Source of the DNA: Acidobacteriota bacterium | GTDB lineage: Bacteria; Acidobacteriota; Vicinamibacteria; Vicinamibacterales; CAVVIG01 | Length of the DNA stretch: 64,000 bases | Assembly (NCBI GenBank): GCA_003222395.1 | Contig: QHWB01000064.1 | Coordinates: forward strand, 1 to 64,000 | Reading direction: 5' to 3' | Shown: in pieces, positions 2,672 to 12,075 of the stretch | Layout of the letters: each line of letters starts with the position of its first letter | Numbering within the stretch: the stretch's first letter is position 1 | The notes under the pieces: model-generated | Told to the model about the DNA's origin: nothing | What the model saw: the letters and a program-made list of their open reading frames with translations, nothing else | Database searches by the model: none | Program-made: the position numbers and the translations under genes

Positions 2672-2852
2672 TGGCGGCGTCCACATCGTCTTCGACGCTG
2701 CAAAAGTTTCAAGATCGAGGCACGCGCAACTACTCGCAGAGGCCCGGACGTTGAAAATTAGGGGGACCTGGAGGTCGAGCCCGGTCACGATCGTCGCTCC
2801 TGGGGCATCCTGAGCAGTTGTTTTGTCGCGCCGACCTTGGCGATCTGGAAGA

Positions 2853-2954
2853 TCATGCCCATCGCTGCTTTTCCAGGCCCAACCGCGCTCGTTGCTCGAA
2901 CACGGCCGGACTCACGTAGCCGATGGTCGAATGCCGGCGCCGCTGGTTGTACAA
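2853..2954 (-). pseudogene. Tail of an IS3-family OrfB transposase
   Basis: The minus strand reads LYNQRRRHSTIGYVSPAVFE and continues to a TGA at 2853-2855. This is the classic C-terminal end of IS3/IS150-group OrfB proteins, where YN-x-RRHS-LGY-SP-FE lies just after the catalytic Glu. Only the last 33 residues remain. Upstream coding is cut exactly at the Tyr-Asn codons, where the left end of the serine recombinase element begins. Confidence 0.75.
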
Positions 2955-2992
2955 CTCGACAACGCAACACCCACAATACTGAGTCTCGAGAA

Positions 2993-3454
2993 GTCCGGTA
3001 CCTGTGGCATCCGTGGTTCGGTCGGCTTGTCACAGTGTACGAAACGATAACCAAAGGCGGACATCCGGTCTGTCGGTGCGGCGTTGAGGATCAGCGCAAT
3101 GACCGATCGGTGGAAGTGCCGGCATGGATGTTTGAACCGGCCGCCTGTGATCACCTGCATCTGACAGCCACGCCATTCGTGGACTGTCAGGCGTTGATCG
3201 AATTGAAAGCCGTGTTGCCGACGGCGCCGCGGGCCGACGTGCTACAAGCACCGCACCATTCCTTGATTGCTCCGGGAGGTGCTGATGCCACGCGCCAGAC
3301 GCCGATTGGGAGTCTCGCAAGCAACCGACGCTGTTTCATCCTCCGCCCCTCGCCCGCACTTTCAGATGCTGCCGCCGGACATTCAGGAACGGACGATTCG
3401 ACTGCTCGCCCGAGTGCTGCGCCGGCACGCCGATCAGCCGCTCGGCTCCGGTGA
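2993..3454 (+). CDS. DUF5372-like accessory protein of the recombinase element
   Basis: Conserved text begins at VRYLWHPWFGRLVTVYE and continues to PAWMFEPAACDHLHL and CQALIELKAVL. This HPWFGR / C / P-WM / LL pattern resembles the DUF5372 family found beside recombinases and transposases. A homologous frame lies at 11568-11929 on the minus strand. The frame runs open through the left end of the element, and no ATG, GTG or TTG lies between that end and HPWFGR, so the true start is unclear; the given start marks where conservation begins. The frame overlaps the next small gene and stops at 3452-3454. A role as a DNA-binding or directionality partner of the recombinase is an inference. Confidence 0.5.
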   Translation, partial: VRYLWHPWFGRLVTVYETITKGGHPVCRCGVEDQRNDRSVEVPAWMFEPAACDHLHLTATPFVDCQALIELKAVLPTAPRADVLQAPHHSLIAPGGADATRQTPIGSLASNRRCFILRPSPALSDAAAGHSGTDDSTARPSAAPARRSAARLR

Positions 3455-3479
3455 AGCGCAGGAGGCGCGTGATGAGTGA
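3285..3479 (+). CDS. Small protein between DUF5372-like gene and recombinase
   Basis: A 64-residue, Arg-rich protein (MPRARRRLGVSQ..., then LPPDIQERTIRLLARVLRRH). The ATG at 3285 follows a strong ribosome-binding site, GGGAGG, 5 bases upstream. The gene overlaps the recombinase start (3472) by 8 bases, which implies translational coupling. The second element copy keeps the same Shine-Dalgarno and ATG (GGAGGTGCTGATG) before it is cut by an IS, so this small gene is a real part of the element. The central LPP-IQE-TIRLLARVL helix resembles short proteins encoded next to recombinases in planctomycete and acidobacterial elements. Function unknown. Confidence 0.6.
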   Translation: MPRARRRLGVSQATDAVSSSAPRPHFQMLPPDIQERTIRLLARVLRRHADQPLGSGEAQEARDE

Positions 3480-5546
3480 CAAGATCCGCCCGCAACACGT
3501 GGCGCGAAAAGCCATCCTGTATGTGCGCCAATCGTCCGCGTACCAGGTGAATCACAACCTTGAAAGCCAACGATTGCAGTACGCGATGCAAGACCGATTG
3601 CATCAATTAGGCTGGCGCGAGGTCGACGTCGTGGATGAAGACCTGAGTCGGTCCGCCGCGGGTACGGTCACGCGTGCGGGCTTCGAACGCATGGTGGCCG
3701 AGGTCTGTCTGGGGAACGTCGGCGGGGTGGCCGCTCGTGAGGTGTCGCGATTTGCGCGGAATAGCCGCGAGGGCAGCACCTGGTCGAGGTCTGTCGCGTG
3801 GTCGATACGGTCTTGGTCGACTTGGAAGCGGTCTATTGCCCGCGCCTCAGTAACGATCGCCTGCTGCTCGGATTGAAAGGTAGTTTGAATGAATACGAGC
3901 TCGATCTCTTGCGGCAGCGGTCGGTGGAAGCGCGTCGCGCGAAAGCCAAGCGCGGCGAGCTCCTCGTGGCGGCGCCGGTGGGGTTTCTGAAAACCGACGC
4001 GCCTCATTTCGAGAAAGATCCCGACCGCCGCATTCAGGAGGCCGTCGCGCTCGTGTTCCAGAAATTTGAGGAATTGGGAACGGTGCGCCAGACGTTATCG
4101 TGGTCTCTGGAACACGGCCTGCAGCTGCCGGCTCGATCGGTGTCCGGTGAGATCACGTGGCGACGGCCGTCGTTCGGCGTGCGCTATCGGATGCTGAATA
4201 ATCCGATCTATGGCGGTGCCTACGCGTACGGAAAGACCGAAAGCACGATTCGGTATGAGCAGGGGGAGCCGCGCACGTCGTCTCGCCGGCGCCCGCGCGA
4301 GGAGTGGCTTGCCTTTATTTCTCACGCCCACGAGGGGTACGTGAGCTGGGAAGAATTTGAGCGGAACCGACAGACGATGGCCGCCAATACACGGGCGTGG
4401 AATCACACCGGGGCGGCGACGAACGGCCCGGCGCTCTTAACGGGAGTACTGCGTTGCCGCCGGTGTGGGCGGAAATTGGTCGTCTGCTACACTGGCAATG
4501 CTCACAACGTCCTGCGCTACGTCTGCGTCCGCGGCGCGCGTGATAACGGGGAACCGCGCTGCATCTCGTTCGGAGGACTCGTGGTGGACGACGCGATCGG
4601 CAAGGAAATCCTCTGTGTCGTGCAGCCGGCTGCCGTTGCCGCTGCTGTCGTCGCCAGTGAGGCGGCGGCCCACCAGCGAGATGAGGTCCTGAACGCGTGG
4701 ACGCGCGAGTTGGAAGCGGCACGGTACGCTGCTCGCCGAGCGCAGAAACAATACGATGCGACCGATCCCGAGAATCGCTTAGGCGCCGACGAGTTGGAGC
4801 GACGCTGGAATACCGCATTGCAGCGTGTCCGCGAAATCGGGGAGCGCATCGAGCAACACACGCACGGCGGCAGTCAGCCCCCTGGTCCCAACCCGAGACG
4901 AATTTGAGAATCTGGCTGCGGACCTTGAGACCGTCTGGAGAAATCCGCACGCGGATGTCCGACTGAAGAAACGCCTCGTTCGAACACTCATTCACGAAAT
5001 CGTCGTCGATACCGATCCCGAGGCCGGTGAGGTCATCCTGGTCATTCACTGGAAAGGCGGCGTGCATACCGAACTGCGAGTGCCGCGACGACGACGCGGG
5101 CAGTGTGCCACGCACACGTCGAAGAACGTCGTCGATGCGGTTCGCGTGTTAGCACGGATTTGTCCTGACGATCTGCTCGCGAATGTCCTGAATCGGAATG
5201 GGCTCCGCACCGGCCGTAGCAATCGCTGGACTCGAGAACGCGTGGTCTCACTGCGCACCCACCACGACATCGCTTGTTACGATCGCGATCGACGGGTCTC
5301 TGAGGGATGGATGAATCTGAACGAAGCCGCTCGGTCCTCGGTATCAGCGCGAGAACGCTCCGGCTGGCCGTCGAGCGCGGCGAAATCGAGGCCGCTCATC
5401 CTTTGCCTGATGGCCCGTGGGTGTTTCATCGTCAGGCGCTCGAAGCTCCAACGGCGGCCGCGCTCGTCGCTCGCGTGCGGGGCCGAAATCACCGACCCGC
5501 AGTACCAAATTCTCAGCAACCAGCTCTCGTGTTTTCAGGCACATAG
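3472..5546 (+). pseudogene. Large serine recombinase, broken by three frameshifts
   Basis: The resolvase domain begins at AILYVRQSS with the presumed nucleophile Ser at residue 21 or 22, then ESQRLQY and the SRFARNSRE region. It is followed by a recombinase domain (GVRYRMLNNPIYGGAYAYG), a Cys4 zinc ribbon (LRCRRCGRKL...YVCVRG...RC), a long coiled coil and a C-terminal helix-turn-helix-like end (LGISARTLRLAVERGEIEA). The reading frame is lost three times: a base missing at 3770/3771 (GAG-TGG-CAG is now GAGGGCAG), a shift around 4855-4870, and a base missing near 5334. Re-joined, the product would be about 690 residues, normal for the family. It would integrate or excise the element. Confidence 0.85.
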
Positions 5547-5570
5547 CCTGGTGGGGCAGTATGAAACACG

Positions 5571-6497
5571 GTTGTAATGATCAAAGAACATCTGTAGCGT
5601 GCGCTCCAAATGACCGGCATTCATGATCAGCAGCCAGTCGAGGCATTCGGAACGCGCGGTCCGAACAAAACGTTCGGCGATCCCATTCGCTTCGGGAACC
5701 TGAATCGGCGTACGAACGATTCGAGCGCCTTCCGACTCAAACACCGCATCGAAGCTGTCCGTGAACTTCCGGTCGTGATCGCGAATGACAAAACGAATGG
5801 GCTGCGCGCGCTCGCCGAGCGTCCATGCGACTTGCCGCGCCTGCTGCGCGACCCACACTGCGTCTGGATGCGCCGTGCAGCCGGCCAGATGCACGCGGCG
5901 ACGGCCGATCTCGATGAAGAACAGCACGTACAGTCGCTGGAGCCAGACCGTGTCCACGGTGAAGAAATCGACCGCGACGATGCTCTCCGCTTGGGTCCGC
6001 AGAAACTCACGCCATGACGGACCCGGTCGCTGACCGGCTGGGCCGACATTGTTCGCGCGCAGCACCTTTCGCACGGTCGTCGCTGATACACTAACGCCGA
6101 GCCCTTTCAGTTCGCCCACGATGCGCTGGTAGCCCCAACGCGGGTTCTCCCGCGCCAGCCGCACGATCAGATCGCGGACCTCACGACTGATCGGTTGTCG
6201 GCCAACTCGGCGACGATAGGTCCAGCGCCGCGCTACCAGTCGACGATGCCACTCGAGCAAGGTGGCCGGCTTGACGATAAATGACGCCCAACTCGCGCGC
6301 GGCAACAGTCGGCTCGCGGCCGACAAGAACACTCGGTCCGCCGTTCTGAGCCCAGGACGACCGACCTGGCGACGCAGAACGGCCAACTCGTGGCGGAGCA
6401 CCACGATTTCCAATTCCTTGAATTCGTGTGAACGAAAGGCGAGAGCGACGAATTGCAGCACGCGTTGAAGTGCGACGTAACAGACGGAGAGGATCAC
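5571..6497 (-). pseudogene. Group A IS transposase, C-terminus cut off
   Basis: About 309 residues of an integrase-core (rve) DDE transposase. It begins MILSVCYVALQRVLQ, with the N-terminal FKELEIVVLRHELAVLRRQV helix and an HTH around WHRRLVARRWTYRR. The catalytic triad is visible: Asp in VAVDFFTVD, Asp in VIRDHDRKF and Glu in NGIAERFVR. Coding stops making sense after FFDHYN; the normal tail (xRPHRxLxLxPP...LGGLLHEYxxAA) is missing. The break is exactly at the Tyr-Asn codons (gat cat tac aac, complement of 5571-5582), where the recombinase element begins. All catalytic residues remain, so activity is not fully excluded, but one IS end is gone. Confidence 0.8.
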
Positions 6498-11567: not shown

Positions 11568-11933
11568 GCCGTGGCATCAGCACCTCCTGCCGTGAGCAAG
11601 GAACGATGCTGGGCTTGTAGCACACCGTCAGAATCCGGACGTTGGGCAGGCCGTTGCGCGGCTCGCAGCAACGCCTTCAACTCCAGCAAGGCGTCGCAGC
11701 CGACCGTCGGCACGGTCATCACGCGCAGCCGACAACATGCGGCCGGCTCAAACATCCAGGTCGGTATCTCTATGGATCGATGATGTTGCACCTCCTCGAG
11801 ACCGCACCGACACACGGCGTGCCCTTGCTTGACGAGCTTCTCATACACGACGACAGAACGACCGAACCACGGGTGCCATGGATAACAGACCTGTCGCGCC
11901 TCAATATTATGGGTGTTGTGTTGTCGACTTGTA
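11568..11933 (-). pseudogene. Second copy of the DUF5372-like element, left end only
   Basis: The minus strand reads QVCYPWHPWFGRSVVVYEKLVKQGHAVCRCG, PTWMFEPAACCRL and CDALLELKALL, homologous to the gene at 2993-3454. It continues into the same GGAGGTGCTGATGCCACG ribosome-binding/start region of the small gene and is then cut by the group B IS end at 11567. The outer end (TACAAGTCGACAAC, minus strand from 11933) matches the first copy. As in copy 1, no start codon lies between the element end and HPWFGR. No recombinase gene is left here. Confidence 0.7.
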
Positions 11934-12075
11934 TCACAAAAGCCGGACGCATCTCGGACTGGGCAAGGACACGCCGGACGGCAGACCGATCCAGCCGGCA
12001 AGCGCCGGAGAGATCGTCGCGAGTCCTGAAGTCGGTGGTCTCCATCATCGATACGAGCGTCGCGCGGCATACGCG
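11929..12075 (+). pseudogene. Tail of a group C IS transposase
   Basis: The plus strand encodes LYHKSRTHLGLGKDTPDGR, then IVASPEVGGLHHRYERRAA. This is the C-terminal end of an integrase-core transposase like that at 41441-42250. Coding upstream of the Tyr-His codons is missing and is replaced by the left end of the second recombinase element (TTGTA at 11929-11933). Confidence 0.7.

Follow-up and report, generated by a model that had tools for sequence, protein, structure and literature searches.

Why does a small mobile element in a 64,000-nucleotide stretch of an Acidobacteriota genome (assembly GCA_003222395.1, contig QHWB01000064.1, positions 1 to 64,000; hereafter the window) meet transposase genes at the same conserved codons at each of its ends? 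A first-pass annotation had read it as a serine recombinase element inserted exactly at the Tyr-Asn codons of transposase genes, by a recombinase that recognises this codon pair. The element spans 2950 to 5576 on the forward strand, with 2625 bp between its left and right core TA (Table 1). Comparison with its relatives makes it very likely that this is a three-gene transposon, moved by a large serine recombinase (LSR), that enters transposase genes at the codons for YNxxRPH, and that a wider set of LSRs does likewise at other motifs.

The evidence comes chiefly from the relatives that we group as clade A. A tblastn search with a piece of the recombinase returned 1036 places in 487 plasmid records, all clades pooled, and a scan of genome contigs contributed the best 80 of 193 relatives. 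Clade A comprises 88 loci, namely these 80 genome contigs, six plasmid regions and two loci of the window's own genome. After leaving out seven loci in which one end was not recognised by pattern (L010, L026, L065, L077, L084, L086 and L088), three with a misplaced left end (L032, L035 and L072) and four with less than 60 bp of left flank, 74 remain. For the bulk of the clade the element ends are conserved, with some variation, as GTTGTACAAC-N9-[GC]AACRCCCAC on the left and GATGGGYGTTATGAAACA-N3-TTGTA on the right. In 67 of the 74 left flanks, the motif [YF][NH]xx[RHKY]xH is read antisense from the TA within IS3/IS481-like rve transposases, and in two more (L039 and L040) the same motif tail lies on the right, indicating sense insertion; L013 has a transposase tail at both ends. 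The background for this codon motif in the same DNA is 10 of 395 other TTGTA sites and 10 of 7043 other GTA sites. The flanks are also recognised by profile: right-flank frames match NCBIfam IS3 models in 49 of 70 cases and IS481 models in 43 of 70, and Pfam rve_3 in 46 of 70, while left tails match rve_3 (51/66) or rve_2 (5/66) at E ≤ 0.01. Open frames of at least 20 amino acids in phase with the Tyr codon lie on both sides at 59 of the 68 two-flank loci, a count that stands without a control figure. The collected flanks are thus transposase genes cut at the codons named in the first-pass annotation, and elements at unrelated sites were not seen as a rule. One detail of that annotation is corrected: the Tyr was placed just after the catalytic Glu, and counted by eye it lies about 35 residues beyond it.

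Such a pattern could in principle reflect a small number of old insertions that multiplied as passengers of their carrier insertion sequences. Four copies on Sinorhizobium medicae ml49 plasmids (L124, L128, L132 and L142) do occupy the same site of one inverted-repeat insertion sequence in four places. Co-transposition is possible there, and repeated insertion into identical copies explains the pattern equally well; no target duplication around these insertion-sequence copies was seen by eye. However, near-identical S. medicae elements also sit in several different transposases, and the 74 clade A left flanks comprise 69 distinct sequences (below 90% DNA identity) and 50 distinct tails (below 60%), which makes passenger spread a very unlikely general explanation.

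What the enzyme would recognise can be read from the junctions themselves. Fifty-eight distinct joined sites give the consensus RTG-N-GG-N-CG-N6-RTTGTA, in which the TG at -18/-17 and the TT at -3/-2 are each 98-100% conserved (L005, L013, L021, L031, L039, L040, L047, L070, L079 and L087 are left out of this logo). The half-site comparison, which leaves out L031-L032, L035 and L072 and, for attB, also the sense loci and a few others, shows that both halves of the element's site attP have the form TACAAY-N10-AACRCCCAY and thus make up an inverted repeat, RTGGGYGTT-N10-RTTGTACAAY-N10-AACRCCCAY. The target site attB is mainly one-sided: its tail-side half, TACAAY-N6-CGNCCNCAY, corresponds to the Y-N and R-P-H codons, and its head side is weakly conserved. 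The distal CNCAY of attB lies 4 bp closer to the core than the CCCAY of attP, a shift resembling the difference in attP and attB spacing that is a trait of other LSRs. The crossover lies at the TA within TTGTA.

The sites that depart from the codon motif are informative in this respect. Among the five exceptions, L005, L021, L031 and L047 retain the Arg-5 and His-7 codons (background 131 of 26,701 TA sites) and L070 retains Arg-5 only; at L047, both flank frames are without any Pfam family match. Since four of the five exceptions keep the half-site codons, one of these four in frames without a Pfam match, we infer that the enzyme recognises the DNA sequence itself, whether or not it belongs to a transposase; transposases would be hit because the half-site is written in their conserved codons. 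The proposal of a recombinase reading a conserved codon therefore holds in so far as the same half-site is shared, and gives way to a reading of DNA that may also be satisfied outside recognised transposases (L047). These sites also bear on survivorship, by which fairly free insertion would be followed by the persistence of only those insertions that fall in dispensable mobile-element genes. Such genes would tolerate insertion, and a small number of sites depart from the strict motif, as survivorship would have it; yet selection cannot direct 69 of 74 insertions to one and the same base of one codon, nor does it account for the half-site in four of the five exceptions or for the invariant TG at -18/-17. 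These points largely refute survivorship, which we regard as highly improbable.

Intact counterparts of the target sites show that the junctions of the relatives are insertions and not later deletions. When the flanks of L017 are joined at the TA, the resulting 222 nt align as one ungapped piece, at up to 99.5% identity, with intact plasmid copies; 117 plasmid records are matched, 96 of them over at least 80%, and three of the 15 matches listed are annotated as IS3 family transposase. The joined site of L082 is 92.3% identical to its intact counterpart, and that of L040 is 91.9% identical with one length difference, eight of the 15 matches listed being annotated as IS3. Similar empty sites are found for two more distant lineages (described below). 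The joined site of lineage B locus L143 is 220 nt, ungapped and 100% identical in the six plasmids listed, all annotated istB (67 matching records, 52 with at least 80% coverage), and that of lineage C locus L140 matches an annotated IS66 transposase at 96.3% identity across 87% of the query. At L017, attL, attR and the empty site have TTGTA in common around the exchange point, and there, as at lineage B L143, only a short core is present, without target duplication, as is typical of LSR junctions.

At the window copy itself, both ends lie where the first-pass annotation had put them, the left (2946-2955) in the tail of an IS3 OrfB and the right (5571-5576) in the head of an unrelated, IS481-like transposase, and the truncated second copy beside a third type of transposase is likewise present. 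The left-flank tail matches Pfam rve_3 with an E-value of 0.0066; the right flank, read antisense as ...LERTLQMFFDHYN, has a best NCBIfam E-value of 9e-27, below that model's cut-off. Contig 103 of this genome carries an uninterrupted relative of the right-flank gene, which is 98% identical over the 243 bp beside the junction and reads on through the site as HYNGHRAHRRLGLAPP. The window copy is thus a hybrid, flanked on its two sides by parts of different transposase genes, and by itself it does not show one clean insertion: the position of the junctions at the Tyr codon stands, and the idea of a single exact insertion here does not. The hybrid probably arose through recombination between element copies. 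Other clade A loci likewise have one flank in common and the other different (L034/L080, L045/L046/L060 and L014/L063), which indicates that recombination between copies does occur, and the element copies may shuffle the halves of transposase genes. These mixed flanks are what one would expect if junctions in such regions, rich in insertion sequences, came from later deletion or homologous recombination. As an account of the whole pattern we hold this to be extremely improbable, given the empty sites in other genomes for three clade A loci and two other lineages and the intact relative that reads through the right-hand site; for the window copy, recombination is likely a second step.

The same genome holds further copies. 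On contig 40, a copy with an open recombinase frame of 699 amino acids occupies a clean site, its joined flanks reading through as ...LRRYLSY/YHRSRTHLALDKD (a slash marks the junction here and below). A further fragment of the element lies on contig 114, and another on contig 78 (24580-24754, L210) is 84% identical to part of the left open reading frame (ORF) region of the window copy.

We further note that distantly related LSR lineages appear, from their flanks, to sit in mobile-element genes too, most at a motif of their own and with fewer sites per lineage. These were drawn from four plasmids and six genomes that carry several elements, and their recombinases are about 33-45% identical. 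Ends were found by comparing copies and targets by profile, tblastn or eye; in most of them an open frame continues across the joined flanks. Lineages B and E interrupt IstB at the Walker A motif, where heads end at 98 and the L143 tail starts at 100 of 232 profile positions; one lineage E copy (L177) lies inside IS66 TnpC. Lineage C enters IS66 TnpC at ERAIRPI/ALGRKNWLF, where the heads reach to 339-340 of 387. S. fredii CCBAU 83666 plasmid pSF83666a carries L129, which adjoins an apparent lineage C left end beside IS66 sequence and looks like a nested or tandem invasion. Lineage D heads end at 226 of 294 in IS21 and at 311-312 of 369 in IS3 transposases, and the tails, read by eye as NGMAE or AKVE, place this site immediately before the catalytic Glu. 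Lineage F interrupts a tyrosine recombinase at LLGH in the sense orientation, lineage H sits in IS91, and lineages J and K in group II intron reverse transcriptases, where tails start at 71-72 and the L195 head ends at 70 of 353. Lineage G enters other LSRs, at NDRLLLGL/KGTMSEAE. The victim of one lineage G element (L189, G397 contig 3) is by sequence a recombinase gene of the clade A kind, so that the hunter is itself hunted.

The targets of L185 (LSR) and L193 (reverse transcriptase) were read by eye, and those of L196 (TnpB) and L129 were assigned from flank sequence and not by profile. L190 has a pre-Glu site, and an 'rve_I' label for it was rejected on that account. Replicates found by tblastn are L218-L220 (IS66), L221 (IstB), L222 and L224 (tyrosine recombinase) and L232 (reverse transcriptase). 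L145, L149, L170, L172, L173, L176, L178 and L181 are left out of this survey, the head of L151 is not clear, and L137, which adjoins an apparently uninterrupted IstB gene, has no target assigned. Within the phylum of the window, L091 has an IS91 site, L092 a tail of ArdC (tail only, E 1e-5), L093 IS66 TnpB (head 2-47, tail 44-99 of 101) and L098 an IS4-type DDE gene; L097, L100 and L104 have pre-Glu sites (the rve match of L104 is below cut-off), and the targets of L094, L095, L106 and L112 were identified by tblastn or reading.

Lineage and target are associated. In a tree of 53 rows with 13 target types, the targets require 13 changes, where the minimum is 12 and shuffled labels average 33.6, none of 200 shuffles being as low. 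Single groups with support of 99-100 are formed by rve_YN (17 rows), DDE_preE (9), IS66_RKNW (6), gpII_RT (4), Xer_LLGH (3) and IS66_TnpB (2), while IstB_WalkerA (5 rows, 4 changes) and IS66_FAGSD (2 rows, 2 changes) are not single groups. A first tree, before the labels were revised, gave 17 changes against a least possible 15. Between that tree and the present one, labels were changed and six rows lacking a target (L096, L099, L101, L102, L103 and L108) were left out, so the result is a description and not a blind test; near-copies inflate scores of this kind, and L005 is counted as rve_YN though its site is an exception.

Several observations weigh against this account. The five exceptions among the 74 clade A sites match the codon motif in neither orientation, at the sense insertion L039 the base after the TA is G although the target codon calls for C, and the right core of L003, in the window's own genome, is TTGTG and not TTGTA. 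Some loci combine the head and tail of different genes, hence not all are clean insertions. A palindromic TA core should allow insertion in either orientation, and the strong antisense bias (67 of the 69 motif sites) is at odds with this. The zinc-ribbon match of the L002 recombinase falls below the Pfam cut-off. Among the 23 loci of the phylum (L091-L113), a target is identified in 11; L111 is the window copy, L105 and L109 are suggestive, and nine have no assigned target. Finally, ArdC, both IS91 sites, the second IstB site and IS66 TnpB are represented by one or two independent sites only, some of them assigned by eye or tblastn.

Taken together, these observations suggest a mechanism in which the element would be excised as a circle carrying the inverted-repeat attP, and the recombinase would then join this attP to an attB that is transposase coding DNA of the form TACAAY-N6-CGNCCNCAY. 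After exchange at the central TA the element would lie within the Tyr codon, in most cases antisense, and the conserved tail of the transposase would be severed about 35 residues beyond the catalytic Glu. With this tail cut off, disabling of the target is likely, and insertion would thus likely disable competing insertion sequences. In this way, the codons that a protein family conserves best would provide an attB in a great many different genes. The benefit to the element may be that such targets are plentiful, dispensable and mobile. By reading codons fixed by protein conservation, a DNA integrase would gain a vast supply of targets and retain its specificity.

Extending this to the other lineages, we think it likely that the LSR superfamily lives by invading mobile elements, with conserved and often catalytic codons as attB, and that prey switches with the attB motif, providing a sequence-guided brake on transposition. 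The prey would include the rve tail, the pre-Glu codons of DDE transposases (IS3, IS21 and IS4 types), IS66 TnpC and TnpB, the IstB Walker A motif, IS91, group II intron reverse transcriptase, LLGH, ArdC and other serine recombinases. Predation of this kind, by one element on another, may keep the insertion sequences, introns and recombinases of bacteria in check and shuffle their halves, and related LSRs with different readable half-sites offer a natural series for learning how DNA is chosen.

Table 1. Features of the element, its flanks and the second copy in the window.
Feature	Position	Strand	Remarks
Element	2950..5576	+	left core TA to right core TA; ends conserved in relatives
Left junction GTTGTACAAC, attL core	2946..2955	.	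TA at 2950-2951
Right junction GTTGTA, attR core	5571..5576	.	TA at 5575-5576
Left-end ORF, conserved, ~100 aa (WHPWxGR protein)	2963..3262	+	open frame 2837-3454
Small ORF, ~64 aa	3285..3479	+	equivalent place occupied in plasmid relatives
Large serine recombinase, broken	3472..5577	+	frames 3451-3876, 3798-4907, 4825-5577
Left flank, IS3 OrfB-like transposase tail YNQRRRHSTIGYVSP	2856..2951	-	reads YNQRRRHSTIGYVSPAVFEQ antisense
Right flank, IS481/IS3-like transposase head ending FFDHYN	5577..6497	-	NCBIfam profile; intact relative on contig 103
Second, truncated copy (left end only)	11570..11933	-	66% identity; TA at 11932-11933
Second-copy flank, third transposase tail LYHKSRTHLGLGKDTPDGR	11932..12010	+	read from sequence; end approximate

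The recombinase gene, which the first-pass annotation had placed at 3472-5546, does encode a serine recombinase and is broken into three overlapping frames, so that the window copy is probably dead; intact homologues have about 690 amino acids. In the L008 homologue, the N-terminal Resolvase, Recombinase and zinc ribbon domains all score above the Pfam cut-off, and in L002 their E-values are 3e-19, 1.5e-14 and 1.6e-4. Residues 613-658 of the L002 recombinase form a terminal stretch resembling HTH_17 and excisionases, with scores below cut-off, and this end is perhaps a built-in directionality factor.

The two smaller genes are less readily classified. A Pfam search gave no match for the small ORF, and no Pfam model matched the left-end ORF homologues of L008 and L002. 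A predicted model of the left-end ORF (mean pLDDT 80) matched no fold in the PDB at E ≤ 0.001, a PDB sequence search gave no match at E ≤ 1, and one of 45 members matched PHROGs. The name DUF5372, first considered for this ORF, was dropped, the term being absent from the papers searched and neither of the two homologues having a Pfam match. Its WHP..G motif is present in tested copies of lineages A, B, C, E, F and G and in several loci of the phylum, and was not found in tested copies of lineages D, H, I, J and K. At L097, L098, L101 and L104, a helix-turn-helix-like ORF (RFGxxVHPRSIERAL) lies upstream of the recombinase, replacing the clade A left ORF.

A literature search over titles and abstract openings, with most subscription papers and all preprints outside it, turned up no description of LSR elements that target mobile-element genes. 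LSR transposons of the TnpX/TndX kind, such as Tn4451 and Tn5397, are similarly small elements with many target sites and a short core; unlike theirs, the target here is one codon string of mobile-element genes. A multi-targeting LSR clade with TndX-like members has been described, 63% of which carry DUF4368 (PMC10083194). DUF4368 gave no match at E ≤ 0.1 in the two recombinases scanned, an absence that does not exclude membership of that clade. The site-specific LSR integrases treated in the available text of the same paper also have attB inside conserved coding sequence, for example magnesium chelatase or ATP-dependent protease genes, whereas that text names no mobile-element gene as a target, and its candidate LSRs have 400-650 amino acids compared with about 690 here (PMC10083194). 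In the IS607 family a serine recombinase likewise acts as transposase, and a circle and an overlap dinucleotide have been proposed (PMC4058570). There, however, the DNA-binding domain precedes the catalytic domain and target specificity is very low (PMC4058570), whereas clade A recombinases have the catalytic domain first and strong target specificity, which sets them apart from that family. Group II introns offer another case of a mobile element inside an insertion sequence, as RmInt1 homes into ISRm2011-2. This intron and its host element in Sinorhizobium meliloti are the subject of two reports (PMC4238363, PMC4496777). RmInt1 moves by retrohoming of an RNA-protein particle, in contrast to the elements described here, which would move by DNA recombination into many target families at their conserved codons.

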